This document shows, piece after piece, positions 5,068 through 21,159 of a DNA stretch of 43,400 nt. The stretch is from the IMG/VR virus record IMGVR_UViG_3300025543_004106, positions 1 through 43,400 of that record. The stretch is one strand, 5' to 3'. Numbering within the stretch: the first letter of the stretch is position 1; each line of letters opens with the position of its first letter. The DNA is from a virus. The position numbers were made by a program, and so were the translations under genes. The notes under the pieces were generated by a model that was given only the letters and a program-made list of their open reading frames with translations, was not told the origin of the DNA and made no database searches.

Positions 5068-5068
<1 letters not shown>
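4766..5068 (-). CDS. Histone H1-like (Hc1-type) protein
   Basis: The 100-residue protein is basic. Its C-terminal part (about residues 45-100) resembles the Bacteroidetes/Chlamydia Hc1 family: a helical segment with LFEQIEGLFTDFQEQ, then Lys-rich SQANARKAIGEIKKL and YRKES, matching the family pattern of a helix followed by ARKA..E(L/I)K.L...(Y/I)RKE. Such proteins bind DNA and compact nucleoids. The start codon overlaps the groEL stop (TAATG at 5070-5066), favouring this start, but an internal ATG at 4936 would yield just the Hc1-like domain. The role in the phage, such as DNA packing or host nucleoid control, is inference. Confidence 0.55.
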
Positions 5069-6729
<1,661 letters not shown>

Positions 6730-6730
6730 A

Positions 6731-7033
6731 TTACTTATCTTCGTTAATTGTTGCTAATATTTCTTTATCTTGTATTATGTAATATTCTTCTCCGTCATAG
6801 TCAAATCGAAGAGTTCCGATCTTAGGAACTAATACTACATCTCCTACTTTAGCTTGTACGGTGACGTATTTTCCGAACTCAGACATACGCCCTGGTCCTA
6901 CTGCTAGTACTTCTCCTATTTCAGGTTTCTCTTTCCCCATATCAGGAATTACTATATTACCGTACATTTGTTCACCTTCGTCTAATGGCTTAATTAGAAC
7001 TCGATCGTTCTGTGGAATTAATGATTTACTCAT
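6731..7033 (-). CDS. groES: Co-chaperonin GroES
   Basis: The 100-residue protein matches GroES: PQNDRVLIKPL at the N-terminus, a mobile-loop region containing GNIVIPD (the hydrophobic IVI would dock onto GroEL), EIGEVLAVGPGR, and VGDVVLVPKIGTLRFDYDGEEYYIIQDKEIL-like core strands (only the order is noted here). It immediately precedes groEL, as in bacterial operons, so the two are co-transcribed. The start at 7033 has the recurrent AGTTATACATG leader. T4-type phages usually supply a GroES analogue (gp31) that uses the host GroEL; here both partners are encoded. Confidence 0.96.
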   Translation of the reverse strand: MSKSLIPQNDRVLIKPLDEGEQMYGNIVIPDMGKEKPEIGEVLAVGPGRMSEFGKYVTVQAKVGDVVLVPKIGTLRFDYDGEEYYIIQDKEILATINEDK

Positions 7034-7106
7034 GTATAACTTTTTTTTATGTTTATATTAATATATGAATTTTATTTTAAAAGACAAACCCTAGAGCGGT
7101 TATAAC

Positions 7107-7526
7107 CTATTTAATTTTAATTGTTTTTGCTTTTTTAGATTCCGCGATTGGAATAAATAGATGTAGCAAACCATCTTTCATCTCTGCTTCTAATTTCTCA
7201 AGTTCGAATTTAGCTGCAACTTTATATCCTAAATTAAAAGATCTAGAAGCTAATCCTTTATAAATGTAGCCGCTGTAGTCGAAGTTTTCGTCATTAGGTT
7301 TATCGTAGATAATTTTTAAAAGATCTCCATCAACTTCTAGTTGAATGTCTTTCTTAGTTAGACCAGTACAGGCAACTTCAAAATGAAGTCCTTCTTCGTC
7401 ATAAAAAATATCTAGTGGGTGTGGTTGTTTGTTTTCAAACGTAGTTGGTTGAAAAACGCCGTCTGCCTTGAATAGGTTCCGGAATAGTAGGTCGAACGGT
7501 GTACGTTCTTTGAATAATGTACTCAT
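7107..7526 (-). CDS. Small heat-shock protein, Hsp20/alpha-crystallin family
   Basis: The 139-residue protein has a short N-terminal arm (RTPFDLLFRNLF), an alpha-crystallin domain (about 35-125) with the family features DIFYDEEGLHFEVACTG, LEVDGDLLKI, ASRSFNLGYKV, the strand AEMKDGLLHLFIPIA, and a C-terminal IKIK resembling the I-x-I oligomerisation motif. It would hold unfolding proteins for GroEL/ES refolding. About 70 bases separate it from groES. The upstream minus-strand leader contains a small hairpin (CCGA-GAGCT-TCGG), which might be a thermosensor-like element, but that is speculative. Confidence 0.92.
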   Translation of the reverse strand: MSTLFKERTPFDLLFRNLFKADGVFQPTTFENKQPHPLDIFYDEEGLHFEVACTGLTKKDIQLEVDGDLLKIIYDKPNDENFDYSGYIYKGLASRSFNLGYKVAAKFELEKLEAEMKDGLLHLFIPIAESKKAKTIKIK

Positions 7527-7624: not shown

Positions 7625-9958
7625 TTAATGTCCTTCCTTCCAGTTATCTGCTATCTCTGGTGGTGCTTTAAGAGTTACTCCTGGTAGTACTAGATTAGTT
7701 TCCATTATATGCTGGACTATAGGTGCAAATTCTTCTGCTTGATCTTCTCTGATATTAATTACAAGTTGATCATGAACCTGCGCTTGAACTACAGCATCTA
7801 TATTCATCTCTTTAGCTTTTCTATTTATTTTTAGAGCTGCCCGGTTTACTACAGATGCGGCTAAGCTTTGTAGTTGGTAGTTGAGACAGTTGTTGAGTCC
7901 GTTTTTATAGTCTCTATATATTTGAAGTACTCTATCTTTTCCGTATTGGTCTGATAATTGTTTTCTAAATTTCCAGTCTAGTATTTCATCTCCAAACTTT
8001 TCATAGATTAGTTTTACTTTAGGTAGGTGTCTAACTCTACCTACGTGGTTTACTATAAATCCATAAGCTTTTACCTGCTCTCTTGATAATTCCATCCAAT
8101 CTTTTAGCTGTGGAAATCCATCTAAGTAACCATTTATTAATCGTTCTGCTTCTTTCTGAGGTACATCTAATGTCTTACCTAATGCGAAAGCTCCCATTCC
8201 GTATGGTACTCCTAATGCGTATCCTTTTGCAGTGTTTCTTTTTACTGGGTCTAGTTTCTTAAGAAATACAGGAGAGCTTCTATCCGGACTTACTCCGTTA
8301 GGGTACTTCCTTGTATCTTCTTCTAACTTTTCGGTTTTAATAGCAACCGTAGAGTAGAAGTCCCAACCGTTGTTAAAGATATCTTGTAGATTCTTATCTT
8401 TTGTTACAGATGCAAAGCAGTGTGGTTCTAAGGATTCGTAATCCGAGTCAATTACTTTCCTACCTTTTCCAGCTGTAAGGAATGCTCTTACTATATTTGT
8501 ATACCTTACAATAATAGGTGCGTCTTCTCCTTCTTCTTTAGGTTTAGGTAGCTGTTGAGCATCTGATCCATACCGTCCTGATACTGTTCCGTGTTGCTTG
8601 AAGTAAAAGTAATATCTTCCGTTTTCACTTCTATCCAAAAATCGATCTACATATGTTGACTTAATCTTCAAGAGTTTATTATATATACGTAAATTTTCTG
8701 CCCAAGCATAGGTTTTTGAAAGATGTTCTAACATATCCATATCGAATTGCGCTTGTCCTTTCTTAGTCTTACTCTTAGCTTTAATCCCCATATAGTCAAA
8801 TACTATCTCTCCTAAGTGCTTTTTAGATTGTATATTAATATGTTCACCGTCGTTCTTTTCTTTCCATAGGGACATTGAGATCCTTGCTACCTCAAGTTCA
8901 TCTAGTATGTTTATGTCTCCTGTCAGTAGGTACTCTTTAGCAGGACTGTCTTCTAGTTCTTCTATATTTTTCTGAGTTAAGGAGTATTTTTTAGTCTTTT
9001 CTGATTTAGGTAAAGATAAAGAATATCTTTGAGCTAGTTTCTGCGCCCAACTACCTTTGTTATTAGGAGGGAAGTTATCGAAAGCAGTATTCATTACCCA
9101 TTGCTTAGCTTCTGAGGTATCTAGTAAGCTTTTCATAACAATGCTTTTATTCTTTTCTAAATCTTTTACAATATTCTTATGAGTTTCTTCTAGCAAATCC
9201 ATATCTAGATCAACTCCAAATTCTTCCATAGGTATTGTAACTTCCTTATAAATCGGCATTACTTCATCTTCGAAAAAAAACTTCTCTAAGTTCTCTTCTT
9301 TTAACCTCTTAAGGAAGTGGTTACACAGTCTTAAAGTTAAATCAGTATCTGCAGAAGCATACTTAGATAGTACATCTAAATCTGCTTTATATATTTCAAA
9401 GTTGGTTTTTGTAACTTCTCCTCCATTTTTTTTAATAGATCCTTTCAGTTCTAATTGCTCTTCGTTAGCTGCTTTTTCTACATCTAACCCGATTTCTTCT
9501 TGCACTGATATTGCTAGGGGTTTAAGTCCGAATACTCCCATACCTGCTCCTTCTTCTTGTACTGTGTGTACTAGTAGTAATGTTTCTACCCAGAGGTCTT
9601 CTAATAAGTCTACGCCGTAGTAGTTCTTAATATAACGGCAGTCAAACGAAGCATTATGCATTACAAGTTTCTTACCTTTCAACATCTTAAGGAGGTTCTT
9701 AGAGATAACTTCAGTACTTTGTCCGTTTATCTCTTGAGTTACTAGCTCCTCTTTCTCGTAATCCCATACTAAGGTAGGAATATAAAATCCAATCCCTTCT
9801 TCTCCGGAAATAGACCATCCTACAATCTTACCGCTTCTCATGTTAAGGGAAGTAGTTTCTGTATCGACTGCGATTACTTCTGATTCTTGTATATGTTGAT
9901 ACATTAGTTTTAACGTCTCAGTATCTTGGACGGTATAATACTTCTTTTCTATATTCAT
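7625..9958 (-). CDS. polA: DNA polymerase, family A, with 3'-5' exonuclease
   Basis: The 777-residue protein has an N-terminal DnaQ-like exonuclease: DTE (32-34), HNASFD (101-106) and YASADTD (200-206), so proofreading residues look intact. No 5' nuclease domain is fused; a separate 5' nuclease is at 27601-28632. The polymerase motifs are SGRYGS, motif A DYESLE (D506, E511), motif B R574..K578...Y586 and motif C VHDQ (728-731). The residue matching E. coli F762 is Leu582. Motif C has Gln where VHDE usually has Glu. It is the likely main replicase and replaces the family B polymerase of T4. The start at 9958 follows the stop of the small gene upstream by four bases. Confidence 0.95.
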   Translation of the reverse strand: MNIEKKYYTVQDTETLKLMYQHIQESEVIAVDTETTSLNMRSGKIVGWSISGEEGIGFYIPTLVWDYEKEELVTQEINGQSTEVISKNLLKMLKGKKLVMHNASFDCRYIKNYYGVDLLEDLWVETLLLVHTVQEEGAGMGVFGLKPLAISVQEEIGLDVEKAANEEQLELKGSIKKNGGEVTKTNFEIYKADLDVLSKYASADTDLTLRLCNHFLKRLKEENLEKFFFEDEVMPIYKEVTIPMEEFGVDLDMDLLEETHKNIVKDLEKNKSIVMKSLLDTSEAKQWVMNTAFDNFPPNNKGSWAQKLAQRYSLSLPKSEKTKKYSLTQKNIEELEDSPAKEYLLTGDINILDELEVARISMSLWKEKNDGEHINIQSKKHLGEIVFDYMGIKAKSKTKKGQAQFDMDMLEHLSKTYAWAENLRIYNKLLKIKSTYVDRFLDRSENGRYYFYFKQHGTVSGRYGSDAQQLPKPKEEGEDAPIIVRYTNIVRAFLTAGKGRKVIDSDYESLEPHCFASVTKDKNLQDIFNNGWDFYSTVAIKTEKLEEDTRKYPNGVSPDRSSPVFLKKLDPVKRNTAKGYALGVPYGMGAFALGKTLDVPQKEAERLINGYLDGFPQLKDWMELSREQVKAYGFIVNHVGRVRHLPKVKLIYEKFGDEILDWKFRKQLSDQYGKDRVLQIYRDYKNGLNNCLNYQLQSLAASVVNRAALKINRKAKEMNIDAVVQAQVHDQLVINIREDQAEEFAPIVQHIMETNLVLPGVTLKAPPEIADNWKEGH

Positions 9959-10574: not shown

Positions 10575-10717
10575 TACACTATTGATTTACCTAATATTAA
10601 ACATGATTCGTCTTTGTGAATTTTGACTGAATAATGTGTGTCGTGTTCTTCTATAACTAAAGGTAAGTCTTTATAACTCTTATAGTTATCGTATACGTAT
10701 TGTTGTACTTTCTCCAT
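10574..10717 (-). CDS. Hypothetical 47-residue protein
   Basis: The frame reads MEKVQQYVYDNYKSYKDLPL and ends LILGKSIV. Both ends form TAATG overlaps: its ATG overlaps the stop of queF and its stop overlaps the next ATG. This continuous coupling supports it as a real gene despite its length. No family is recognised. Confidence 0.65.
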   Translation of the reverse strand: MEKVQQYVYDNYKSYKDLPLVIEEHDTHYSVKIHKDESCLILGKSIV

Positions 10718-11634
10718 TACTGTCTTAATGTTTTAGCGATTCTATAAGCTGGATTAGTGAAGAAGTCTGGTATTAGATGTGAGTGAGATGCTCTAATTGG
10801 ATTAATGTCTAACCCTCCTCTTCTAGTGTATAGACATGCTACCATTAGTTCTTCTGGTTCAAAGGCATCGTTTAAATGCTTATATACCATTTCGCATATC
10901 TCTTCATGGAAGTGACTTACTGTCCTGTGACTCACTATGTACTTAGCGATCGATTCAGGTGTTGGTATTTTATCTCCCTTTAGTCTTATATATACATCCC
11001 CCCAATCCGGTTGATTAGTTACTCTACAGTTAGAACGTAGTAGGTTAGATTTTAATCTAACAGTCATATTAATATCATTATCAAGTTCCTCAGCTTCTAA
11101 TTGAGAGGAGTCGGATTGAAATGCTGTAAAATCTATTTCATCTAAATCAGCAATTTCTGCTATATCTAAAAAAGTTCCTGGAAATGTAAAGGCTTCAGTA
11201 TCCTCTTCGGAAGTATAAAATGAGACTGTTGTATCAGTTTCTAGCAATTTATCTAGATCTCTTTTAACTCTTGCTTCTATTCCTAGGATACAGTCTGATG
11301 CTGTGTTTCCTATTCTAGTCATATTTAAAGAATTAAGATATAGTTTGATTGATTTAGATTCTACATGATATTCACTATCTGAAGGACATACTATTTTAAG
11401 CATACCTGCTACTGGTTGTCCTTTAGTTGTAATAGCAGAAACTTCATAACAGTTCCATGTGTCTACTCCTACAAAAGAGTCTGATGTTAATTCGTATCCC
11501 TCTCTATTTAGGTACCTTGGTACTTTTACTAATAAGTCTGGATTGTATTGGTCGGAGTATCCGTCTCCTCCAACTTTACCTAAATGCTTTCCTGCAATTT
11601 TTACTACTTCTTCGTAATTTTTTACTTTTGTCAT
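10717..11634 (-). CDS. queF: preQ0 reductase (bimodular QueF)
   Basis: The 305-residue protein matches long-form QueF, which reduces 7-cyano-7-deazaguanine (preQ0) to preQ1 with NADPH. I see the ESKSIKLY motif (92-99) that binds NADPH/substrate, a large insertion, SNCRVTNQPDWG (201-212) with catalytic Cys203 and Asp210, and SHFHEEICE (240-248). The ATG at 11634 is chosen because it lies after the SNase-like stop with an A-rich leader; the ATG at 11664 would overlap that gene by 20 bp. With QueC upstream it makes preQ1, so preQ1-type bases in DNA are expected. Tetrahydrofolate or tRNA roles are unlikely because DpdA is adjacent. Confidence 0.92.
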   Translation of the reverse strand: MTKVKNYEEVVKIAGKHLGKVGGDGYSDQYNPDLLVKVPRYLNREGYELTSDSFVGVDTWNCYEVSAITTKGQPVAGMLKIVCPSDSEYHVESKSIKLYLNSLNMTRIGNTASDCILGIEARVKRDLDKLLETDTTVSFYTSEEDTEAFTFPGTFLDIAEIADLDEIDFTAFQSDSSQLEAEELDNDINMTVRLKSNLLRSNCRVTNQPDWGDVYIRLKGDKIPTPESIAKYIVSHRTVSHFHEEICEMVYKHLNDAFEPEELMVACLYTRRGGLDINPIRASHSHLIPDFFTNPAYRIAKTLRQ

Positions 11635-11644
11635 AATTTTATTT

Positions 11645-11998
11645 TTAGTTTTTTGATCCGCCATCGTAACTTACAGCATGACCGTTTTCGATTAGTAGTT
11701 TATTTAATGAGGTTTCTTCTCCTTTAATGAAAATATCAGCGAGTACTCTTCCATACTTACCTTTGCCGTAAGATTGTATTTCAAATCTTCCTTCATTTAA
11801 CATTAAATAAGCTTCTGTGAATGCTGATGCTTTTAATCCTTTAACTTTTTCTGCTTTATCTCTAGTTCTCTTTTCCCAAGTATCTACTCCTTTAAACCTT
11901 AACCTTGCTTTTATCCAAGTATCAAATCCTAAGTCAATCATGACATCCGCTGTGTCTCCGTCGATTACTCTTACTAACTTTGCTCCGTATCTATACAT
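11645..11998 (-). CDS. Staphylococcal nuclease-like (SNase/TNase) protein
   Basis: The 117-residue protein has the SNase OB-fold: VIDGDTADVMIDLG (11-24), ARLRFKGVDTWEKRT (31-45) and GKYGRVLADI (80-89). Candidate catalytic residues are Arg34, Glu42 and Arg84 (the classical R35/E43/R87 triad), with Asp13 as a calcium ligand. The start is the ATG at 11998; the TTG at 12013 gives only a five-residue extension. It lacks a signal peptide, so it would act inside the cell, possibly to cleave host DNA or recycle nucleotides. It overlaps the preceding gene by 8 bp. Confidence 0.85.
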   Translation of the reverse strand: MYRYGAKLVRVIDGDTADVMIDLGFDTWIKARLRFKGVDTWEKRTRDKAEKVKGLKASAFTEAYLMLNEGRFEIQSYGKGKYGRVLADIFIKGEETSLNKLLIENGHAVSYDGGSKN

Positions 11999-12239
11999 TC
12001 TCAAAATATTCAATTAAAAATTCTTTTCGGTATAACATTACTTTTCCGGTATATGTTTTAGTTTTTACCTCTCTAATATTAACCGGTTCTTTCTTTATCT
12101 TTGCTGCTCTATATACATCTGCACCTAGTTGTGTTCCTGCAGGATACCCTAAGTGGTCAAATAATGATACTGTAGCTTGTTTTTTATTAGTATAATCGGC
12201 TCCATCTATCACGATATCTTCTGTTTTAAAGTTTAACAT
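11991..12239 (-). CDS. Hypothetical small protein
   Basis: The 82-residue protein has a Gly/Ala-containing central part (HLGYPAGTQLGADVYRAAK) and a basic C-terminal part. It overlaps the kinase stop (TAATG at 12241-12237) and the next gene by 8 bp. I do not recognise a family. Confidence 0.65.
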   Translation of the reverse strand: MLNFKTEDIVIDGADYTNKKQATVSLFDHLGYPAGTQLGADVYRAAKIKKEPVNIREVKTKTYTGKVMLYRKEFLIEYFENV

Positions 12240-12757
12240 TATTTTATAAAATTTAATATTTGGTCTACTCTTTGCATAGGAGATCCCGTAATGGTAAGGT
12301 AGGGTTTTCTTATGTCATTAAGGAGTGCTTTAAATTCTTTATCAATCTTTACTCTCCATTCTTCATCTACACTACGTACTCCATCATCTACTGATTTGAA
12401 TTCTATAGGGAAGTATATGTAATGAGTGTATTCATTCTTTACCCTGTTCCAGGTGTCTTCTATATAACTGTGGCTAGAAGTGTCAATACCCGGCATAAAA
12501 TTAGAATATACCATCAGGTCCATATAACATCTATCTAATAGAAGATTACCTGGCCGTAATAAAGCTTCTAAATGAAAACTACTTATAGCTAGTTGAGTTT
12601 TAGAAGTTCCTTTTTCATTAATAGGAAATCCATACTCTGCTACTGTTCTAGTAGACTCGTTAATAAATTCGTATTTAGGTAGTTTATTTTTTAATAATTC
12701 ATATACAGTAGTCTTACCCGTACTACTTGCTCCTACTAGTGCTATTCTTTTAACCAT
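12239..12757 (-). CDS. P-loop kinase, NadR/AAA_28-like
   Basis: The 172-residue protein begins with a Walker A motif GASSTGKTT (9-17), a conserved ESTRTVAEYGF element, LLLDRCYMDLMVYSNF (a Walker B-like/DR segment), and a C-terminal TGSPMQRVDQI helix. This fits the AAA_28 domain family that includes the NadR ribosylnicotinamide kinase and other small phage nucleoside or nucleotide kinases. Its substrate cannot be named from the sequence. Next to MazG-like, formyltransferase and deazaguanine genes, a nucleoside- or nucleotide-related phosphorylation role is plausible but unproven. Confidence 0.8.
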   Translation of the reverse strand: MVKRIALVGASSTGKTTVYELLKNKLPKYEFINESTRTVAEYGFPINEKGTSKTQLAISSFHLEALLRPGNLLLDRCYMDLMVYSNFMPGIDTSSHSYIEDTWNRVKNEYTHYIYFPIEFKSVDDGVRSVDEEWRVKIDKEFKALLNDIRKPYLTITGSPMQRVDQILNFIK

Positions 12758-13043
12758 TTAATGTACCTATTTGTTTAGACAATATAAGAAATTTTTCTAT
12801 ACGCTCCACCTTTTTCTCTTGATATTCTGTAATCGGTATGTGTAAAAATTCTTCAGGGAATAACATTCTCATCGCTGCCATAAGGTCACCATATTCTTGT
12901 AGAAGTCTTTCTTTGTTAGTAAGTTCTCCTGGCTGAGTACCGGTTGGGTCAGTTAGTCCGAATCTTAATGCTTTAGTAGATCTTTGAGTTACTTCAGCAC
13001 ATTCCTCAGCTATAATTGTTAATAAATGTTCTTCTCTTGTCAT
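12750..13043 (-). CDS. MazG-like nucleotide pyrophosphohydrolase
   Basis: The 97-residue protein (starting MTREEHLLTIIAEECAEVTQ) has the all-alpha NTP pyrophosphatase metal motif EExxE (13-17) and ExxD (Glu50/Asp53 in QEYGDLMAAM). These enzymes hydrolyse NTPs or dNTPs to monophosphate. The ATG at 13043 overlaps the previous stop by 4 bp (ATGA) and is preferred to the upstream codon at 13070. In this context it may remove unwanted nucleotides or clean the pool; exact substrate unknown. Confidence 0.8.
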   Translation of the reverse strand: MTREEHLLTIIAEECAEVTQRSTKALRFGLTDPTGTQPGELTNKERLLQEYGDLMAAMRMLFPEEFLHIPITEYQEKKVERIEKFLILSKQIGTLNG

Positions 13044-13576
13044 AAAGATTTCTTTAAGAAAGTTACCCATAAGTACATCGATCTATCTCTAGTTACTTTC
13101 CACATCTCTTCTTCTGTAATATTATATGCATTAAATCTTTCTTCTGCTATAATCTTTCCTTCATCTACTCCAGCTGTAACTTTATGTAGAACACATCCCA
13201 TGACTTCGTGTTTAGAGTTAAAAGCTCTGATTTGAGGGTCTTTACCTTTTAGTTCAGGGTACTCGGTGATGAGTCCTGGATGTCCGTTTATTATTGTATG
13301 TTTCTCGCATATCTCTGCAGGCATAATCCTTAGCCACCCATGTAAAGTTACTAGAGGTTCTTTGTAGTACTCTAATACCTCTTCTAGTTCTTTTTGAGTA
13401 GGTTTATTAGAGATTGTTACTAGCCTAGTAGATTCTTTTATGTCTGGGTGTATCTGTCTGAGAGAGTTTGGTCTTTCATTCGTAACTATTACGTCAGGCC
13501 ACTTCCCTATTGCATTTACTATTTCAACTATCTCACTTCCGGTTTGAGAAAAAAAAGCGATCCACTTATATTTCAT
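13040..13576 (-). CDS. dpdN: Formyltransferase, probably dPreQ1 formyltransferase (DpdN-like)
   Basis: The 178-residue protein belongs to the GART/PurN formyltransferase fold: LHGWLRIMPAEICEKHTI (78-95), the catalytic INGHPG (Asn97, His99), and VTAGVDEGKII (133-143) with Asp138. It is shorter than typical PurN (about 190-210 residues). Published work on phage DNA names a dPreQ1 formyltransferase, DpdN, that gives formylamino-methyl-deazaguanine; placement two genes downstream of the DpdA-like transglycosylase together with queF fits that role. Alternative: a purine-synthesis PurN. Formyl donor would be 10-formyl-tetrahydrofolate by family. The assignment to DpdN rests on context, not on comparison. 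Confidence 0.72.
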   Translation of the reverse strand: MKYKWIAFFSQTGSEIVEIVNAIGKWPDVIVTNERPNSLRQIHPDIKESTRLVTISNKPTQKELEEVLEYYKEPLVTLHGWLRIMPAEICEKHTIINGHPGLITEYPELKGKDPQIRAFNSKHEVMGCVLHKVTAGVDEGKIIAEERFNAYNITEEEMWKVTRDRSMYLWVTFLKKSL

Positions 13577-13577
13577 T

Positions 13578-13769
13578 TTACTTTACTTTGCTTTTAATAT
13601 TTTCGTAAGCTGTCGGGTATCTGTATTTTCCATCAAATACCCAATATTTTATCTTATATGTAGATCCTGCTGGTTTTTCTTTTTCTATCCTTTCTATAGT
13701 TCCTTTAAGAATCTCTCCTATAAAAGTAAACTTTACATTATCTCCTACTTTATACCTTTTTAGTCCCAT
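13578..13769 (-). CDS. Hypothetical SH3-like small protein
   Basis: The 63-residue protein (MGLKRYKVGDNVKF...) is strand-rich with the pattern VGDNVKFTFIGEILKGTIERI, like a small SH3/Tudor-like barrel. The ATG at 13769 lies inside the end of the upstream dpdA-like gene and is preferred to an upstream TTG. Sitting between the transglycosylase and formyltransferase genes, it may belong to the same modification machinery, but no function is known. Confidence 0.6.
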   Translation of the reverse strand: MGLKRYKVGDNVKFTFIGEILKGTIERIEKEKPAGSTYKIKYWVFDGKYRYPTAYENIKSKVK

Positions 13770-14556
13770 TAACAAACCATTTAAACTTATGTATATTGTT
13801 TAAGATTAAATTAGTATCTCCAACCTCGTGATTCATAAGTTCATGAAGTTTTTGAGATTCTTTATTCCACAATCCGTCTGATTTATATCCGATTCCTTTT
13901 ATCCCATGTACTACTGGGTTACTAGTATCTAATGAGTATATCCAATCGTATTGCGAGTAGAAAGAAAATTCTTGAGGTAAACTACAACCTAGTAGATGAT
14001 GCTTCTTATCTTCGTTTATAATACCGTCTCTTAGTAAATCTCCTAGTAGCTTAACACGTCCTAGCATCCAACTAACGTATTTGTTAGGGTGAGAGATAGT
14101 CTCAGTGTAGTACGAATAGTCGAAAGAAATAGCAATCATATCTACATCTGCCATTTTATCCATATATTCGTAGCATGCTACTATTTGCTTATAGGTCTTA
14201 CCCTGTACTACTCCTATTTTCTTACCGTAAGCAGCATCTGCATACCTTAGATTCCAGTCTGCCATTTGAGACATAGTCTTTTTAGTATCTTCTAGAGCGT
14301 CTGGGACTATGTACCATTCTGGTTTTAATTCGTTGACCCAGTGTATAAATTTATCGGAATCAAAAGCTTCTTCTAATTCAAATATTGAATTATCTAAAAT
14401 AACCTCTCTACCTTTATTTACTGCATCTTTAAATTGTTGAAAATATTCTTTATCTTCTTCAAATAAATGTACTAATGCGTAATCGTAGTCTGTATATTCC
14501 TGCACTTCCTTGAAAATACTCTTAGGTGCTTCATGCGCTATTTTTATATTACTCAT
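13750..14556 (-). CDS. dpdA: DNA guanine transglycosylase, DpdA-like (TGT fold)
   Basis: The 268-residue protein matches a short tRNA-guanine transglycosylase-type TIM barrel: REVILDNSIFELEE (50-63), EWYIVPDALEDTKKT (80-94), KIGVVQGKTY (113-122), DVDMIAISFDY (138-147), HLLGCSLPQEF (187-197) and YSLDTSNP (207-214). Asp55, Asp86 and Asp210 are candidates for the active-site aspartates. The shortness, lack of zinc-binding Cys/His and its deazaguanine neighbours fit DpdA, which swaps guanine in DNA for a 7-deazaguanine. Its subfamily cannot be set by eye. An RNA-acting Tgt is the alternative but is usually longer. Confidence 0.78.
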   Translation of the reverse strand: MSNIKIAHEAPKSIFKEVQEYTDYDYALVHLFEEDKEYFQQFKDAVNKGREVILDNSIFELEEAFDSDKFIHWVNELKPEWYIVPDALEDTKKTMSQMADWNLRYADAAYGKKIGVVQGKTYKQIVACYEYMDKMADVDMIAISFDYSYYTETISHPNKYVSWMLGRVKLLGDLLRDGIINEDKKHHLLGCSLPQEFSFYSQYDWIYSLDTSNPVVHGIKGIGYKSDGLWNKESQKLHELMNHEVGDTNLILNNIHKFKWFVNGTKKV

Positions 14557-14737
14557 CTATCTCTATATTACTTATTGATGTCCTTAAATCTTGCATTGCT
14601 TTATCTAACTCCTCTAAATAGCCATCACTACTTAATTCTGCAGATAATTCAGTTAACGCTTTTATTGCTATAGAGTACGGCACCATCTCCATCTTATGGC
14701 TTTCTATGAATATCTTGTGATCTTCTAAATTAATCAT
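14549..14737 (-). CDS. Hypothetical 62-residue protein
   Basis: The small acidic helical protein (MINLEDHKIFIESHKMEMVP..., ending ISNIEIDE) has no recognisable motif. It overlaps the MazG-like gene by 8 bp and the dpdA-like gene by 8 bp, making a coupled run of three genes. Confidence 0.65.
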   Translation of the reverse strand: MINLEDHKIFIESHKMEMVPYSIAIKALTELSAELSSDGYLEELDKAMQDLRTSISNIEIDE

Positions 14738-15260
14738 TACTACTTGTTTTTAATTGTTCTTCTGTAAAAAACTGTCTTAAGTCGGGTCTGAAGTAATTGA
14801 TTGATTTCATTACTTTCTTATCTCTAGACCTGTATACAATATACCTGCCTTCCTCGATTCTCTCAAAATGACAGGCCTCACCTTGTTCCTTACTTCTTTG
14901 GCTGACGGTCTGTATGGCTTCCTCTTCAGTTTTGCAAGCTTTCGACATATTACTTGCTTGAACTTCTTGATATGCTGGCCATACCTTATCCTTAATACCG
15001 TGTAGCATAGCACCGTTCCCAAGGGAAACATAAGTAATATCGCACAAAGCATCCAGAACTTCCACAATATCTCCTCGTTCGCAAGCTTCTCTATATTCTT
15101 CGAGCTCTTCGAGAATGAAGTCATAAACAAATTGCCATTCTTTCTTTTCTGGGATTGTTGGTTCATAGTTGTTTGGTTTTCCAAATGTATGGTTGAAGAT
15201 TTCTACCTCATTAATGAAAGGTACATCTACTTCGCTGAATAAGCTTAATTGATTGTTCAT
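14730..15260 (-). CDS. MazG-like/PRA-PH-like pyrophosphohydrolase
   Basis: The 176-residue protein has a central all-alpha NTP-PPase core: EELEEYREA (51-59) and EVLDALCDITYV (67-78), giving the EExxE and ExxD metal ligands, then AYQEVQASNMSK. A C-terminal extension of about 60 residues (about 115-176) contains EEGRYIVYRSRDKKV. The family hydrolyses nucleotide triphosphates or phosphoribosyl-ATP-type substrates. It sits between folE and dpdA, so a role in nucleotide-pool control for the modification pathway is plausible. A 124-codon frame in another phase here is a shadow. Confidence 0.8.
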   Translation of the reverse strand: MNNQLSLFSEVDVPFINEVEIFNHTFGKPNNYEPTIPEKKEWQFVYDFILEELEEYREACERGDIVEVLDALCDITYVSLGNGAMLHGIKDKVWPAYQEVQASNMSKACKTEEEAIQTVSQRSKEQGEACHFERIEEGRYIVYRSRDKKVMKSINYFRPDLRQFFTEEQLKTSSND

Positions 15261-15264
15261 AATT

Positions 15265-15978
15265 CTAATGTTTACATATTGATGCTAATTCTATATTCTT
15301 GTAGAATTCTGCTTTTGCTGAATCTTCGTTTAGGAATGCTCCTGTTAGTTTTGCTGTTTGCATTGAAGCACCTCTATGCTTTACTCCTCTACACGATACA
15401 CATGCATGAGTAGCATTAACCTGTACTGCAACTCCTAAATTACCTTCACATATCTTGTCTACTGCATTATGTATAGCTACAGTTAATTGTTCCTGGATAG
15501 CTCCTCTTCTTCCGAATTGCTCTACTATTCTATTTAGTTTAGATAGCCCTACTACCTTGCCATCTTCCGAAGCAATATAAGCAATACTTACTGTACCTCT
15601 AATAGCTTGATGGTGATGCGAACACATAGACATTATAGGTATATTACTTTCTTGCACGATACCGTCATACCCATCGGAAGGGAATGCTGTGATACGGTCT
15701 AGAGGGTTATACCTTCCTGCCCATAAATCATTAACGTATGCTTTCGCTACTCTATGAGGAGTATCGGATGAATTAGGATCGTCTTTATAATCGCATCCTA
15801 ATGCAGTTAGAAAATCTGCATAAGCGTTTGCTGCTCTTTCTATAATTACTTGTTTCTCATGTTCAGTTAACCTAGCTTCAGGTCCTTCTGCCTTCTGCTT
15901 CTCTGCTAATTGTCTTGATATACCGTTCGCATATCCTGCTTTTACTAATTCTGTTCCGTCTATAAACTTTTTAGGCAT
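15265..15978 (-). CDS. folE: GTP cyclohydrolase I
   Basis: The 237-residue protein has the FolE signatures: DTPHRVAKAYV (72-82), SMCSHHHQAIRG (117-128) with zinc ligand Cys119 and nearby His residues, GLSKLNRIVEQF (144-155), and ATHACVSCRGVKHRG (189-203) with the second zinc Cys193. It converts GTP to dihydroneopterin triphosphate, the first step of 7-deazaguanine synthesis (and of folate). A promoter-like box is at 16025-16041 upstream. The rest of the queuosine-type pathway surrounds it. Confidence 0.96.
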   Translation of the reverse strand: MPKKFIDGTELVKAGYANGISRQLAEKQKAEGPEARLTEHEKQVIIERAANAYADFLTALGCDYKDDPNSSDTPHRVAKAYVNDLWAGRYNPLDRITAFPSDGYDGIVQESNIPIMSMCSHHHQAIRGTVSIAYIASEDGKVVGLSKLNRIVEQFGRRGAIQEQLTVAIHNAVDKICEGNLGVAVQVNATHACVSCRGVKHRGASMQTAKLTGAFLNEDSAKAEFYKNIELASICKH

Positions 15979-16024
15979 AAATTTTAATTGTTTTTTTTGA
16001 GGTTCTACGACTCATTAATATAAT

Positions 16025-16041
16025 AGTAATAATATAAGTAA
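16025..16041 (-). promoter_or_regulatory. Candidate promoter box upstream of folE
   Basis: The minus-strand sequence TTACTTATATTATTACT is matched at 16 of 17 positions by TTACCTATATTATTACT at 30541-30557 upstream of the SSB gene. Both are 27-47 bases or so before an ATG and in an intergenic gap, consistent with a promoter of a shared temporal class. Confidence 0.5.
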
Positions 16042-16047
16042 TTTATT

Positions 16048-16464
16048 TTAATTCTCCAAATAATCTTGAACTGCTTTTGCACTACTATCTTCCCATGGGA
16101 AAACTAACCAGTTATCGTTGTGTATACTAGTACCTGTAATTGTGGGTAAGTAGGTAGTGCTATGTCTTGTTGCTAAAGTAGCAGTTATGAAGTTATGTCT
16201 GTGTATTTGAGCTAGTGTATTTCCGGAATCTGCTATGTCATCTATAACTAATATTTGTTTTTTTATATTTCCAGGTAGTGCTTTAGCAGCTTCTAGTCCA
16301 ATATACGGTATATTAAATTTGTGAGATATTAGTATTGCAGGGATTAACCCGCCTCGTGGTATTCCTGTAACAAATTTAGGTGTATCTAAACCTTCTAATT
16401 TTTCTCCTATATTATCTATCTGAGTATTAATCCATTGCCAGTTATATAACTCTTTTTTTACCAT
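16048..16464 (-). CDS. Phosphoribosyltransferase
   Basis: The 138-residue protein has the type I PRTase core: a TGIPRGGLIPAILIS loop (33-47) and the PRPP-binding motif ILVIDDIADSGNTL (71-84), with C-terminal WLVFPWED as seen in xanthine/hypoxanthine-type PRTases. Substrate is likely a purine base, but it cannot be fixed from the sequence. In this gene set it may feed guanine or xanthine nucleotides to the GTP pool used by FolE; alternatively it is a general salvage enzyme. Length is short for typical purine PRTases. Confidence 0.85.
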   Translation of the reverse strand: MVKKELYNWQWINTQIDNIGEKLEGLDTPKFVTGIPRGGLIPAILISHKFNIPYIGLEAAKALPGNIKKQILVIDDIADSGNTLAQIHRHNFITATLATRHSTTYLPTITGTSIHNDNWLVFPWEDSSAKAVQDYLEN

Positions 16465-16467
16465 TTT

Positions 16468-16635
16468 TTATGTATTAGTTGTTGTCCATCTTTCTGATAT
16501 TATATATTCAGTAGATTCGGTTTTTACTTGTTTTAGTTTCTCTTTTAGGAAGTCCCATTGCTTAGGGGAGAGGTTGTAGTGGTGTACTCCTTCCACAAAT
16601 CCTCTAAGCCATTGTATAAATTCTTTATCAGACAT
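16468..16635 (-). CDS. Conserved-type small phage protein (FxxWLxGF)
   Basis: The 55-residue protein reads MSDKEFIQWLRGFVEGVHHY, then LSPKQWDFLKEKLKQV. This FxxWLxGF...L...QW..(I/L)...L..V pattern is familiar from many small T4-like phage proteins of unknown role. It overlaps the upstream gene by 8 bp and its stop lies three bases before the phosphoribosyltransferase ATG. Confidence 0.7.
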   Translation of the reverse strand: MSDKEFIQWLRGFVEGVHHYNLSPKQWDFLKEKLKQVKTESTEYIISERWTTTNT

Positions 16636-16924
16636 CTTGCTTAAAATTGATAGTTAATTCTGAGGATATTCTCCAAATGTTTAGCTTTTCTCTGGTCCCT
16701 TCTGTGTTGAAGATTGCTTTATTATTTGGTATCCCCATTTCTGTTAAGTAGTTCTTTATCTCATCTACAGTCACATATTCTTCTTCCACTCCTTTCCAAG
16801 GGTTTTCGTATATTAAGTATACATTAAAGTTAGAGGATTTATAATCCCATACTGGTTTTCCGTTTACGGTTATTAGTTTCTTACCTATTCCTGGTTGCTC
16901 TAATATCTCTTTAAAGTTAATCAT
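16628..16924 (-). CDS. Hypothetical protein
   Basis: The 98-residue protein begins MINFKEILEQPGIGKKLITV and includes KLNIWRISSELTINF near the end. It has no known motif, signal or membrane segment. It overlaps the small genes on both sides by 8 bp, so it is in the continuous QueE-to-phosphoribosyltransferase transcript. Confidence 0.65.
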   Translation of the reverse strand: MINFKEILEQPGIGKKLITVNGKPVWDYKSSNFNVYLIYENPWKGVEEEYVTVDEIKNYLTEMGIPNNKAIFNTEGTREKLNIWRISSELTINFKQDV

Positions 16925-17051
16925 TTTCTAAATATTCTTTTAATTTATCACAGAGTCCTAGTACTTCATCAGGCTCCATCGTTATTGCACAACATGTATT
17001 AATATTATCCATTATTTCTTCTAGTATTTCTAAAGCTTCGTGTTTGTCCAT
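16917..17051 (-). CDS. Hypothetical 44-residue protein
   Basis: The frame reads MDKHEALEILEEIMDNINTC and ends KLKEYLEND: an acidic helical peptide with a CC pair in the middle. Its ATG overlaps the queE stop (TAATG at 17053-17049) and its end overlaps the next gene, supporting translation. Confidence 0.6.
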   Translation of the reverse strand: MDKHEALEILEEIMDNINTCCAITMEPDEVLGLCDKLKEYLEND

Positions 17052-17905
17052 TAAACTTCTCTCTGATCTTCAAAGGCAATAATGTGAGGTCTCCAGGTCA
17101 TCCTGTATCCGTTATCTCTCACCCAGTCAAATACTAGTGGGTACGATTTAAACAAAGATTCTCTTGAATCTCCAGCAGGCATAAACCATACTTTATCTTT
17201 GATCCAAGTCTGTAATTGACTTTGTGTGAAAGCTTCAGTCCATGCTGTTGCTCCGTAGTACCTTTCTTGCAGGTTTCTTATCAGTTCATCAATGAAGTTT
17301 TTTATTTCAGCTAAAGCTGTTTCGTCTTTTCCGTCCCATACAGGTTTTAAATGAAAATCATCATGGTGTATTATTGAGTCAGCTATAGCGTCAAGATTAA
17401 GTCTAAACTTATTATGCCTTTTTACCATTCTTTCGTCCGTAATCGCTCCTTGAGGAGTTTTAACTCCCACCACAGGAACTGAATTACTAAATTTAGGGCT
17501 AATAGACAACAGATTAATAGGATAATCAGTGGGGAGAAAATGCGATCCTTCAGTTTCGATAGTAATAAAGATATTATTTTCATGTGCAAAATGTGTTAGT
17601 TCGTTTACTAAAGCAGGATGCATTGTCGGTGAACCACCTGTTAACATCATTTCCTTTATATGAGGATTATCTTTATATGCTTTAATAATATCTTTAAAAG
17701 TAAACTGCCCTTTTTCTGGATGGATACTTGTGTACCAGCTGTCGCACCATCCTCCTTCACCAAAGTAACACCTATGTGTACAACCTGTAGTCCTAATTAC
17801 TACTGTCGGGTACCCTGCTCTTGAACCTTCTGACTGTACTGCAGTATAGATCTCTACAATAGGTAAGTTCTTATCGTAATCCTCTATTCTTTTAAGCTTC
17901 TTCAT
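17051..17905 (-). CDS. queE: 7-carboxy-7-deazaguanine synthase (QueE), atypical cluster loop
   Basis: The 284-residue radical SAM protein has QueE hallmarks: IVEIYTAVQSEGSRAG (16-31), IRTTGC (37-42), WCDSWYT (53-59), MMLTGGSPTMHP (86-97) and later LLSISPKFSNS. QueE converts carboxy-tetrahydropterin to 7-carboxy-7-deazaguanine using a [4Fe-4S] cluster and SAM. The cluster Cys residues are C42, C46 and C54: CX3CX7C instead of the usual CX3CX2C. It overlaps the queD stop by 14 bp. The function call is firm; the loop is unusual. Confidence 0.9.
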   Translation of the reverse strand: MKKLKRIEDYDKNLPIVEIYTAVQSEGSRAGYPTVVIRTTGCTHRCYFGEGGWCDSWYTSIHPEKGQFTFKDIIKAYKDNPHIKEMMLTGGSPTMHPALVNELTHFAHENNIFITIETEGSHFLPTDYPINLLSISPKFSNSVPVVGVKTPQGAITDERMVKRHNKFRLNLDAIADSIIHHDDFHLKPVWDGKDETALAEIKNFIDELIRNLQERYYGATAWTEAFTQSQLQTWIKDKVWFMPAGDSRESLFKSYPLVFDWVRDNGYRMTWRPHIIAFEDQREV

Positions 17906-18359
17906 ATATTGCGCTGTTTTTTTGGTGTTCTCTAAACTCTACTTTTGTTACCTTAACCCTACCTTCTGTCTCTGTGTGTATGAATGGAGCTACTTTATCA
18001 AATATAAACTTAGCAAACCTTTCTGCTCCTGTAGCAGGTACAATTCTTACCTGTGCTACACCTGCTTCACCCATCTTTAAGAAGGAGTCTTTAAATGGAT
18101 CATCTTGCGCTACTAAGAATGTATGATCAAACATATAATCCATCCATTCCTTAGGAGACATTCCGTCTATTTTTCCTTTTGCTCTTTTCATACCTCCAAA
18201 ATCCCATACCCAGTTTCTTTCATCTAAATCTCCTTCAAACCAGAGTTTAAATGAAATTCCGTATCCATGTAGTTTTTGGCAATGTGTACCTTCTGCTCTC
18301 CATTGACGGAATACTGTAGAGAATCCGTCAAATACTTTTGTTGATGTAAATTTATTCAT
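17892..18359 (-). CDS. queD: 6-carboxy-tetrahydropterin synthase (QueD-like), altered zinc site
   Basis: The 155-residue protein has the PTPS/QueD fold: THCQKLHGYGISFKLWFEG (25-43), WVWDFGGMKR (50-59), MFDHTFLV (76-83) and VPATGAERFAKFI (107-119), with Cys27, His31, His79 and Glu113 at the expected places. The canonical HxH zinc pair reads His31-Gly-Tyr33, and the first zinc His (usually near residue 16) is not present. This departure may define a phage subfamily. It would turn dihydroneopterin triphosphate into carboxy-tetrahydropterin for QueE, the gene just downstream (14-bp overlap). Confidence 0.85.
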   Translation of the reverse strand: MNKFTSTKVFDGFSTVFRQWRAEGTHCQKLHGYGISFKLWFEGDLDERNWVWDFGGMKRAKGKIDGMSPKEWMDYMFDHTFLVAQDDPFKDSFLKMGEAGVAQVRIVPATGAERFAKFIFDKVAPFIHTETEGRVKVTKVEFREHQKNSAIYEEA

Positions 18360-18368
18360 AGTTATAAT

Positions 18369-18593
18369 TTATACTAGTTCTTCTCCAATTCCAACTATTT
18401 CTGCTGTAAATAAACCTATAAAGCCTATTTCAAACATACCGAAGAATCCAAAAGCGCATGCTCCTAGTCTTATGGCAGATTTAATAAAAGATATTCTCTG
18501 GTGTAATTTCGGATCAGGTATCTTCTGTCCGTCGATTTTGATAGAGTTTCTATTTTCTCTATCCCATAACTCATTGTGTATTTCTTCTTGCAT
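18369..18593 (-). CDS. Small membrane protein
   Basis: The 74-residue protein has a polar N-terminus and a hydrophobic C-terminal half rich in Gly, Phe and Ile (LGACAFGFFGMFEIGFIG LFTAEIVG, broken here for length), which could form one or two membrane helices. Nine bases separate it from queD. No family is recognised. Confidence 0.6.
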   Translation of the reverse strand: MQEEIHNELWDRENRNSIKIDGQKIPDPKLHQRISFIKSAIRLGACAFGFFGMFEIGFIGLFTAEIVGIGEELV

Positions 18594-18672
18594 ACGTGTG
18601 TTTTTAAAGTGGTGCTACGACACTGTTATCGCTTAATAAATATAGTACTTTATAACTTACTATCCAACTCTT

Positions 18673-19011
18673 TTACTCTATTATATAAATTTTTACATTC
18701 CCCCACTTACCGTACTTCATACTTTTATTTACTAAAAAATCAATACGTTTTGTCCATCTCTTATTCATTCGATCTTCTACTGTCCACTCTCCATCCATCT
18801 CCCCAGCATTCTCTATACACACCTTGGTGCCCATAGTAAATCCTAGTTTCTCTAAATCTCTAGAGACAGCAATCCATCTATGTCCTGCAGGATTACTTTC
18901 ATCTATCTTTTTAAGAGAGGCAGTAGTTAAATAGTCTGCGTTTGTCTGTGCTGGATCAGCATGGTAGATGGTAGCCAAGACTGTAGTTATGGCTAGAATA
19001 ATTAATTTCAT
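18673..19011 (-). CDS. Exported 3D/RlpA-like double-psi barrel protein
   Basis: The 112-residue protein has an N-terminal signal peptide (MKLIILAITTVLATIYHA). The mature part includes WIAVSRDLEKLGFTMGTKV, EWTVEDRMNKRWTKRIDFLV and a final KIYIIE strand, resembling the 3D (Asp-Asp-Asp) or RlpA double-psi barrel domains of cell-wall lytic enzymes, in which conserved aspartates sit in V-x-D and R-I-D-x motifs. It could be involved in peptidoglycan degradation in the periplasm. No endolysin-type catalytic motif can be proved. Start context AGTTATATG is the recurrent one. Confidence 0.6.
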   Translation of the reverse strand: MKLIILAITTVLATIYHADPAQTNADYLTTASLKKIDESNPAGHRWIAVSRDLEKLGFTMGTKVCIENAGEMDGEWTVEDRMNKRWTKRIDFLVNKSMKYGKWGNVKIYIIE

Positions 19012-19026
19012 ATAACTTGTTTTTAA

Positions 19027-19170
19027 TTAAATGGAACGGTTTCTTCTTTTACCGTCCCATTGTACTTTTTTAGTGTTTAACATAACGTACCTACCTACTC
19101 TATTATTAAAAGTGTTTCTGGTATCGTTAGTATGTGGTTGACCGTTTTGTTGATCGCTTATAGTTCTCAT
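19027..19170 (-). CDS. Hypothetical 47-residue basic protein
   Basis: The frame reads MRTISDQQNGQPHTNDTRNT and ends GKRRNRSI, rich in Asn, Thr and Arg. It fills the gap between queC and the 3D-like gene, with a TAA 15 bases before the ATG at 19011. It is a plausible but unconfirmed small gene. Confidence 0.55.
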   Translation of the reverse strand: MRTISDQQNGQPHTNDTRNTFNNRVGRYVMLNTKKVQWDGKRRNRSI

Positions 19171-19198
19171 TACTTTATTCTACTTAATTAACATGAGC

Positions 19199-20026
19199 TT
19201 ATAAATATGCAGATAAAACGTTTTCAACGTGCTTTCTAGCAACTTCGTACCCTACTTCTCCTGTCTCGTCTTCATACTGAACTGGATCAGGTCTCCCTAG
19301 TGCAATAAATGCTTCGATCCTTTCTACTGATGAAGCTGATTTATAGTCTGAGTTACCGCTTGGGTAAGGTTTGTATGATGTATTTGTTCTTTTATATACT
19401 TCATTAAAGTTAATCCCAAGTTCATCGCATAATCTCTCACCATCTATTAAAATACCTAATTTATCAGTATCTAAATAAGGAGTAAAGTACCCTACTCTGT
19501 CTGCATCCCAATTTCCCATTCTAAAAGCTGCATCATCTGCATCTCTAAATTCTTGTCTACAATCAGGGTATATAGCATGATCACCAGCATGAATTCCTAA
19601 TGCTATATCACAGGTCTCTTCTGTTTTATTTGCTACTGATAAGGCTACTGCTTGTACTATTGAAGCAAACATTTTATTCCTATTAGGAACAACTGTTTCT
19701 TTCATATTGTCATTTTCATAATGCCCTTCTGGAACATCTTTACCTCCTTCAGTCAATGCTGAATCGAGTAACTCTACTAATCCATCTAATTTAATTTGAC
19801 GATAATTTACTGTACATCCATTATAACAATTATCATCTGATGGGCAATTTTTATTGATATAATCTACTAATTGTTGAGCTCTTTCTAACTCTACTCTATG
19901 TTTTTGACCGTAATCAAAAGATATAGCTGTTACAGAGTCATACTCTTTTAATGCTCTTAATAATAATGTTGAGGAATCCATCCCTCCTGATAAGGATACT
20001 ACGCAATGTTTTAACTTGTTTTCCAT
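19199..20026 (-). CDS. queC: 7-cyano-7-deazaguanine (preQ0) synthase (QueC), zinc cysteines lost
   Basis: The 275-residue protein has the ATP-binding SGGMDS loop (13-18), FDYGQKHRVELERA (38-51), VVPNRNKMFASIV (112-124) and GIHAGDHAIYPDCRQEF (144-160), all diagnostic of QueC, which converts carboxy-deazaguanine to preQ0 with ATP and ammonia. Cellular QueC has four zinc-binding cysteines near the C-terminus (SCY..., CGxCxxC); the equivalent part here (215-235, NTSYKPYPSGNSDYKSASS) has none. An insertion around 60-72 holds three cysteines (61, 67, 71). The ATG at 20026 gives the normal N-terminus; the longer frame from 20080 adds 18 unsupported residues. A terminator precedes it. Confidence 0.92.
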   Translation of the reverse strand: MENKLKHCVVSLSGGMDSSTLLLRALKEYDSVTAISFDYGQKHRVELERAQQLVDYINKNCPSDDNCYNGCTVNYRQIKLDGLVELLDSALTEGGKDVPEGHYENDNMKETVVPNRNKMFASIVQAVALSVANKTEETCDIALGIHAGDHAIYPDCRQEFRDADDAAFRMGNWDADRVGYFTPYLDTDKLGILIDGERLCDELGINFNEVYKRTNTSYKPYPSGNSDYKSASSVERIEAFIALGRPDPVQYEDETGEVGYEVARKHVENVLSAYL

Positions 20027-20445: not shown

Positions 20446-21159
20446 TTATTTATGCACAATTGCTTTGTAATTATCTAAATCCTGCTGGGTATCAATCCCT
20501 TTATATCTTTCTGCTGTTAGTGAGTACTTAAATTCGAATCCGTTATCTGCCCATCTAAGTTGTTCTAATTGCTCTGCAGTTTCATTATCTGTTTTTCTCA
20601 TTCTACTAGAGTGAATTCTCTCTACAGTATCTTTACCGAATCCGTATATTCCGATATGTCTCTTGAATGCTGATTGTGTGTTGTATAGTGGACTTCTTGT
20701 AAACATTAAAATTTTACTAGAATCTACATAGGCTTTCACTGTGTTTCTATCGGTTTCTTGTATTTTTGAAAGCGGACCGACAAGTGTTGATATACTTTCT
20801 GTATTTTTTTGTAAAATACGTACTACATTGTTGATGTCGTTTTCGTTAATCATCGGTTCATCTCCTTGTATATTAATAACAAAATCATATACATCTTTAA
20901 ATGATTCATAAGCTTCAATAACCCTATCTGTACCTGTTTCATGGGAAGGAGAAGTCATAACTACCTCTCCCCCGAATCCTTGAACTGTACTGAATATTAA
21001 CTGGTTGTCAGTTGCAACTACTACTTTATCGACTTGTGATTTTTTTACAGCTTCGTAGACCCATTGGATCATCGGTTTTCCTTTAATATTACATAACGGC
21101 TTTCCCGGCAGTCTTGTTGATCCCCAACGTGCTGGGATAATTGCAACGGTCTTATTCAC
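20446..21159 (-). CDS. kdsB: CMP-Kdo synthetase
   Basis: The 237-residue protein matches 3-deoxy-manno-octulosonate cytidylyltransferase: VAIIPARWGSTRLPGKPL (5-22), VVVATDNQLI (46-55), SHETGTDRVIEA (72-83), INIQGDEPMI (95-104), the RHIGIYGF motif and a final GIDTQQDLD. It activates Kdo with CTP for LPS assembly. The start is GTG at 21159, overlapping the preceding stop (TAGTG). Phage use is unknown: it could alter host LPS, or feed a CMP-sugar to decorate DNA or virions. No Kdo transferase or other LPS gene is visible in the window. Confidence 0.93.
   Translation of the reverse strand: MNKTVAIIPARWGSTRLPGKPLCNIKGKPMIQWVYEAVKKSQVDKVVVATDNQLIFSTVQGFGGEVVMTSPSHETGTDRVIEAYESFKDVYDFVINIQGDEPMINENDINNVVRILQKNTESISTLVGPLSKIQETDRNTVKAYVDSSKILMFTRSPLYNTQSAFKRHIGIYGFGKDTVERIHSSRMRKTDNETAEQLEQLRWADNGFEFKYSLTAERYKGIDTQQDLDNYKAIVHK

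Follow-up and report, generated by a model that had tools for sequence, protein, structure and literature searches.

A complete-looking phage operon for a predicted fdPreQ1-type DNA base, with a phosphoribosyltransferase that may salvage guanine

Which modified base would be made by a block of 7-deazaguanine genes on the minus strand of an environmental virus genome, and which genes belong to its pathway? The block lies at positions 10717–20026 (9.3 kb) of the 43.4-kb virus record IMGVR_UViG_3300025543_004106 from IMG/VR, the whole of which we refer to as the window, and it holds QueF, a PurN-like formyltransferase, a transglycosylase with the fold of tRNA-guanine transglycosylases (TGTs), FolE, QueE, QueD and QueC as intact open reading frames. 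A first-pass annotation had named these seven genes as a one-strand pathway, and family matches bear out each of them except the transglycosylase, DpdA, which we identified by its fold and by homology to a protein of Flavobacterium phage vB_FspM_immuto_2-6A (immuto; MW353175). The seven names were right, but the list left out four more genes inside the block, all likewise on the minus strand: a P-loop kinase, two nucleoside triphosphate (NTP) pyrophosphohydrolases and a phosphoribosyltransferase (PRT), of which the PRT and the kinase are constant partners of the pathway. The same block was found again in dozens of IMG/VR contigs, so the gene set is not a product of chance. Judged from its genes, the operon is real, looks complete and appears to be of the type that makes 7-(formylamino)methyl-7-deazaguanine (fdPreQ1); we consider it probable that it is a phage DNA-hypermodification operon for such a base, with guanine salvage attached.

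In the route that we favour, FolE, QueD, QueE and QueC would convert GTP to preQ0, QueF would reduce preQ0 to preQ1, and a small DpdA3-type enzyme with a TGT fold would replace guanines of the phage DNA by the 7-deazaguanine base, a change that may protect the DNA from restriction. The PurN-like formyltransferase would place a formyl group on the aminomethyl arm, giving fdPreQ1, while a Gpt-like PRT would turn the guanine freed at each exchange into GMP, and hence into GTP for FolE or into dGTP. The gene assignments and the path from GTP through preQ0 and preQ1 to DNA, with formylation, had been proposed in the first-pass annotation, and family matches and fold support them well.

The cluster is a further member of a pathway known from immuto, and not a new pathway. 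Immuto carries these genes too, with little change of order (QueF, kinase, formyltransferase, DpdA, MazG, FolE, PRT, QueE, QueD, QueC), and its FolE, QueD, QueE, QueC and QueF are already annotated as queuosine-pathway genes, alongside a “DNA guanine transglycosylase” and a formyltransferase. The two blocks differ in that QueC of immuto lies about 10 kb further off with other genes between, whereas QueC in the window is 0.8 kb from QueD, and in that the block of the window also includes a small NTP pyrophosphohydrolase gene and an SNase gene. Cui et al. (2023; NAR 51:9214) reportedly described fdPreQ1, DpdN and DpdA3 from such phages; we treat the link between immuto and fdPreQ1 as a lead, not as a test.

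The genes for preQ0 were recognised by their families. FolE, GTP cyclohydrolase I (15265–15978), matched Pfam GTP_cyclohydroI at 1.1e-42, and QueC, the predicted preQ0 synthase (19199–20026), matched Pfam QueC at 7.9e-38 and shares 80% DNA identity with immuto queC over 431 bp. QueE (17051–17905), a predicted radical SAM 7-carboxy-7-deazaguanine synthase, fell just below the cut-off of Pfam Radical_SAM (1.2e-6), matched the PHROG “QueE-like” family at 8.3e-51 and retains the three cluster cysteines. An insertion separates the second and third of these cysteines (CX3CX7C, not CX3CX2C), and is common to immuto, Cellulophaga phage phiST and a second clade of relatives described below. The QueD-like 6-carboxytetrahydropterin synthase (17892–18359; Pfam PTPS, 8e-16) retains C27, D78-H79 and E144, the catalytic Cys, Asp-His and Glu, and has an altered zinc site to which we return.

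For the step to preQ1, QueF (10717–11664; 315 amino acids), a predicted bimodular NADPH-dependent preQ0 reductase, matched Pfam QueF_N (5.7e-27) and QueF (5.4e-16) as well as QueF of Vibrio cholerae (3bp1; E 8e-45), and its best NCBIfam model was TIGR03138, with 236 of the 293 bits needed. Residues C213, D220, H253 and E254 and the motif ESKS are invariant in 18 relatives, and by its sequence the protein is assigned to the bimodular bacterial nitrile reductase type and not to the QueF-L amidotransferases. The DpdN candidate (13040–13576; 178 amino acids) is a PurN-like formyltransferase (Formyl_trans_N, 4e-12) that is 58% identical to its immuto homologue, and N97, H99 and D138, the Asn-His-Asp catalytic residues, are invariant in 25 relatives. 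A scan of IMG/VR with two DpdN sequences yielded at least 223 relatives. All 54 DpdN loci that span 15 kb or more contained DpdA, QueF and the kinase; FolE was present in 53 of them, MazG in 50 and the PRT in 48, the last count rising to 52 with a broader PRT model. DpdN was missing from all 18 DpdA representatives that lack QueF.

The DpdA candidate (13750–14556; 268 amino acids) gave no Pfam and no NCBIfam match. It is 79% identical to the immuto protein annotated as “DNA guanine transglycosylase,” and a Campylobacter phage CP220 protein, which Cui et al. (2023) reportedly assigned to the DpdA3 type, aligned with it at 42% identity over 97% coverage (E about 1e-49). Because sequence-only tests gave no family, we turned to structure. 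An AlphaFold model built from 41 window and IMG/VR sequences reached a mean pLDDT (predicted local distance difference test) of 95.1, and all 50 matches listed from the PDB were TGTs, the best with E 3e-9, probability 1.00 and a TM score of 0.60; the protein thus has the structure of a TGT and not that of an unrelated TIM-barrel family, the outcome that the first-pass annotation had named as fatal to its proposal. Five residues, D55, D86, Q118, H187 and D210, are invariant across the 41 sequences, and, judged by their order and the surrounding motifs, D55, D86, Q118 and D210 would correspond to D102, D156, Q203 and the nucleophile D280 of TGT, with H187 near the base. By sequence the candidate groups with the CP220 protein. 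A profile comparison by hhalign with the DpdA1-type proteins of Sphingomonas phage MMDA13 and Stenotrophomonas phage Bhz54 returned a probability of 0.6%, in a weak test whose second profile held two sequences only. A broad DpdA alignment proved too divergent for a scan of the collection, and net charge or isoelectric point as a clue to a DNA or nucleotide substrate was dropped when DpdA1 proteins turned out to be acidic too. DpdA puts 7-deazaguanines into DNA (PMC6884629), and in CP220, whose base is dADG, as in CPt10, 100% of the deoxyguanosine (dG) is replaced (PMC8306585). Since CP220 is the closest characterised system, high-level replacement is a reasonable prediction for the window phage, which by this analogy probably replaces a large share of its guanines.

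The PRT gene (16048–16464) adjoins FolE and encodes a Gpt-like 6-oxopurine PRT with the phosphoribosyl pyrophosphate (PRPP) motif VIDDIADSGNT. Its profile matched 1vdm at 6.7e-30 and XGPRT at about 1e-17 in the PDB, the top matches being only 6-oxopurine PRTs (guanine, xanthine, hypoxanthine). D75, D76, D79 and T83 of the PRPP motif are invariant, and W119, P123, W124 and E125, the Gpt-type C-terminal Trp/Pro-Trp-Glu, nearly so. The gene's association with the pathway was found in 52/54 and 54/54 relatives, as against 0/159 control loci. These controls, 2.25 Mb in all, comprised 80 terminase loci and 79 T4-type nrdA loci, with no PRT in either set (0/80 and 0/79), and took the place of a control query with CP220 PhoH, which gave four loci only. 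When non-redundant DpdA representatives of at least 15 kb were compared with controls, 24/30 carried the PRT versus 0/69 (Fisher p about 1e-17, with loci taken as independent, although they are not).

The association also extends beyond these relatives. A search of phages with the window PRT returned mostly phages carrying 7-deazaguanine genes, among them immuto, phiST and Campylobacter phages F379 and CP220, and QueD was encoded by 8/8 of the named phage lineages with PRT that were checked. The PRT gene lies between QueE and QueD/FolE in Synechococcus phage BUCT-ZZ01, adjoins queE in Pseudomonas phages Callisto and PA5oct and adjoins FolE in Brevundimonas phage MaInes, while in MMDA13 and Bhz54, next to DpdA, it forms the N-terminal part of a fusion with FolE. 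An independent scan with the Brevundimonas PRT gave 24 loci, 18 of them with Que, FolE or DpdA genes nearby and several of the others short or incomplete. Fusions of PRT and FolE were found at five loci (L003:5944-6831, L004:5902-6795, L273, L274 and L275), three of them from the Brevundimonas PRT scan, and the two genes are adjacent or fused in 40 of the 47 loci that hold both. Exchange by DpdA must release guanine, and recycling of that guanine is therefore the most economical explanation of the PRT, which most likely returns it to GMP; the fusions suggest that this GMP would go to replenish GTP for the pathway itself. A keyword search of the literature, mostly at the level of abstracts and term counts, found no guanine-salvage role for a phage PRT.

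The P-loop nucleoside/nucleotide kinase (12239–12757; 172 amino acids; Pfam AAA_28) is co-inherited with QueF and is 70% identical to its immuto homologue; a relative lies at L010:6813-7355. Its model reached a pLDDT of 92.6, with the NadR kinase domain and deoxynucleoside kinases as best PDB folds, and a homologue adjoins DpdA in CP220, a phage without QueF. In Streptomyces phages, homologues of the kinase adjoin a methyltransferase. A scan with QueC brought out a second clade of related phages (L214, L184, L196, L222 and others) that have DpdA, QueC, QueD, QueE, FolE, PRT and MazG but lack QueF, DpdN and the kinase; we accordingly rejected the kinase as a general partner of DpdA. Among 36 DpdA representatives examined with 4 kb on each side, 18 carried both the kinase and QueF (17 of these also DpdN) and 18 carried neither. 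Since the two groups correspond largely to two lineages, the pattern counts as one evolutionary event or a few. It agrees with a tie of DpdN and the kinase to a preQ1 branch, and from its gene content the second clade would likely make a preQ0-type base. Of the pyrophosphohydrolases, the MazG/PRA-PH-type nucleotide enzyme (14730–15260; Pfam PRA-PH, 2e-10) recurs in 50/54 DpdN loci, and the small NTP pyrophosphohydrolase-like protein (12750–13070; PHROG 4856, 7e-19) is a variable accessory found in just 3/80 DpdN loci.

Several observations weigh against the reading of the block as an fdPreQ1 operon with guanine salvage. The expected families were the best NCBIfam matches of the pathway proteins, but none reached its equivalog cut-off. 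DpdN belongs by sequence to the PurN family and could formylate some other amine. The profile of 41 DpdA sequences gave no significant match to solved TGTs, and matched the bacterial DpdA 7ui4 only at E 0.66. The case for guanine salvage consists of association and fold, and in one scaffold of a fecal phage the 15.5 kb examined include the PRT but no Que genes. Finally, QueD lacks two of the three canonical zinc-ligand His, with F and Y in their place; by alignment, these would be the changes H16->F and H33->Y in E. coli numbering. The altered site (FRQ and HGY motifs) recurs in immuto, phiST, MMDA13, BUCT-ZZ01, L214 and L222 and is not seen in QueD of Bacillus, Weizmannia or Stenotrophomonas phages. 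Since the change is common to several phage lineages it is conserved, and the predicted enzyme is probably functional. The claim in the first-pass annotation that the phage is host-independent goes too far, because GTP, S-adenosylmethionine, NADPH and 10-formyltetrahydrofolate must still come from the host and because the zinc site of QueD is altered; the phage should rather be described as independent of a host preQ0/preQ1 pathway.

Among other accounts of the block, the one to which we give most room concerns the PRT, which might draw on host guanine to raise GTP for FolE, or might act on another purine or 7-deazapurine. The adjacency or fusion with FolE agrees with this, and sequence alone cannot give the substrate, but we think it doubtful, as the top structural relatives take guanine, xanthine or hypoxanthine and as guanine must be freed by DpdA in any case; the first form, moreover, is the same reaction and differs only in the source of the guanine. 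It seems unlikely that the formyltransferase is an ordinary PurN-type enzyme of purine synthesis, which would leave dPreQ1 without a formyl group as the DNA base. PurN was indeed the best NCBIfam match (E 1.5e-12), but at 47 of 150 bits the protein is far under the PurN cut-off and it is shorter than most PurN chains listed. DpdN, furthermore, always occurs together with DpdA, QueF and the kinase and is absent from relatives that have DpdA, QueC, QueD, QueE and FolE but no QueF, as expected of a preQ1-specific enzyme. That the genes boost queuosine modification of host tRNA and do not modify DNA is very improbable: FolE, QueD, QueE, QueC and QueF are queuosine precursor genes, but the operon has its own phage DpdA-type enzyme with a TGT fold, as well as a formyltransferase for which queuosine synthesis has no step.

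The base might also be exchanged before replication. The TGT-fold enzyme would then act on free dGMP or dGTP, MazG would remove dGTP, the kinase would raise the modified deoxynucleoside monophosphate, the PRT would recycle guanine and the polymerase would insert the modified nucleotide. In favour of this, the operon includes a purine PRT together with a MazG-type enzyme and a nucleoside/nucleotide kinase, and its layout resembles the pathways of deoxynucleotide replacement in T4, with hydroxymethylcytosine, and in Z-genome phages. Moreover, CP220 combines a homologous kinase beside DpdA with complete replacement of dG (PMC8306585), and modified dGTP has been raised as a possibility for Campylobacter phages (PMC6884629). 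We nonetheless hold this to be improbable, as 18 of the 36 representatives of the DpdA family have neither the kinase nor QueF. In the work of Crippen et al. (2019), infected cells reportedly contained no dADG nucleotides; the conclusion of Cui et al. (2023) is said to be that insertion follows replication. In other phages, DpdA acts on DNA (PMC6884629). The more general form of the idea, in which DpdA3-type enzymes act on free deoxynucleotides and the polymerase receives modified dGTP from a closed cycle of MazG, the kinase and the guanine PRT, would, if true, explain complete guanine replacement, and we give it slight credence.

Set beside other characterised systems, the window is like CP220 in its DpdA, in the kinase beside DpdA in that phage and in the Gpt-like PRT of its genome, but CP220 has no QueF and no formyltransferase, carries dADG instead of a preQ1 base and has its genes scattered. 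Streptococcus phage Dp-1 and Halovirus HVTV-1, which contain dPreQ1 (PMC6884629), resemble the window in preQ0 genes, a QueF-family protein and a preQ1 base; they differ in having another DpdA subfamily or none and no reported DpdN, and HHpred at first placed their proteins in QueF-L, in contrast to the bimodular bacterial QueF found here. The PreQ0/G+ phages CAjan and 9g (DpdA1) share FolE, QueD, QueE, QueC and a TGT-fold DpdA acting on DNA, but DpdA1-type proteins did not align significantly with the window DpdA by profile comparison.

Around the block, a KdsB-like cytidylyltransferase (20446–21159) lies shortly upstream of queC and was not seen near the cluster in the relatives scanned. Phage-encoded GroEL, GroES and a small Hsp20 chaperone (Pfam Cpn60, Cpn10, HSP20) are neighbours at 5068–7526. 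The window also has two family A DNA polymerase genes (7625–9958 and 31049–32401), one with a 3'-5' exonuclease domain and the other shorter and divergent; immuto likewise has two.

With this operon, a chemistry known to counter restriction would reach a further environmental phage, and the DpdN family, in which its formyltransferase is placed, is common in IMG/VR. Accessory genes of such systems mostly lack an explanation; one of them, besides the PRT, is the kinase, which in this lineage comes with QueF in every case. Less familiar is the PRT itself, which recurs alongside 7-deazaguanine genes in many phages that are not related to each other. Should it indeed reclaim the guanine that DpdA displaces, large-scale guanine replacement would come at a metabolic cost that these phages meet with a dedicated salvage enzyme, at times as a fusion with FolE, the pathway's first enzyme.

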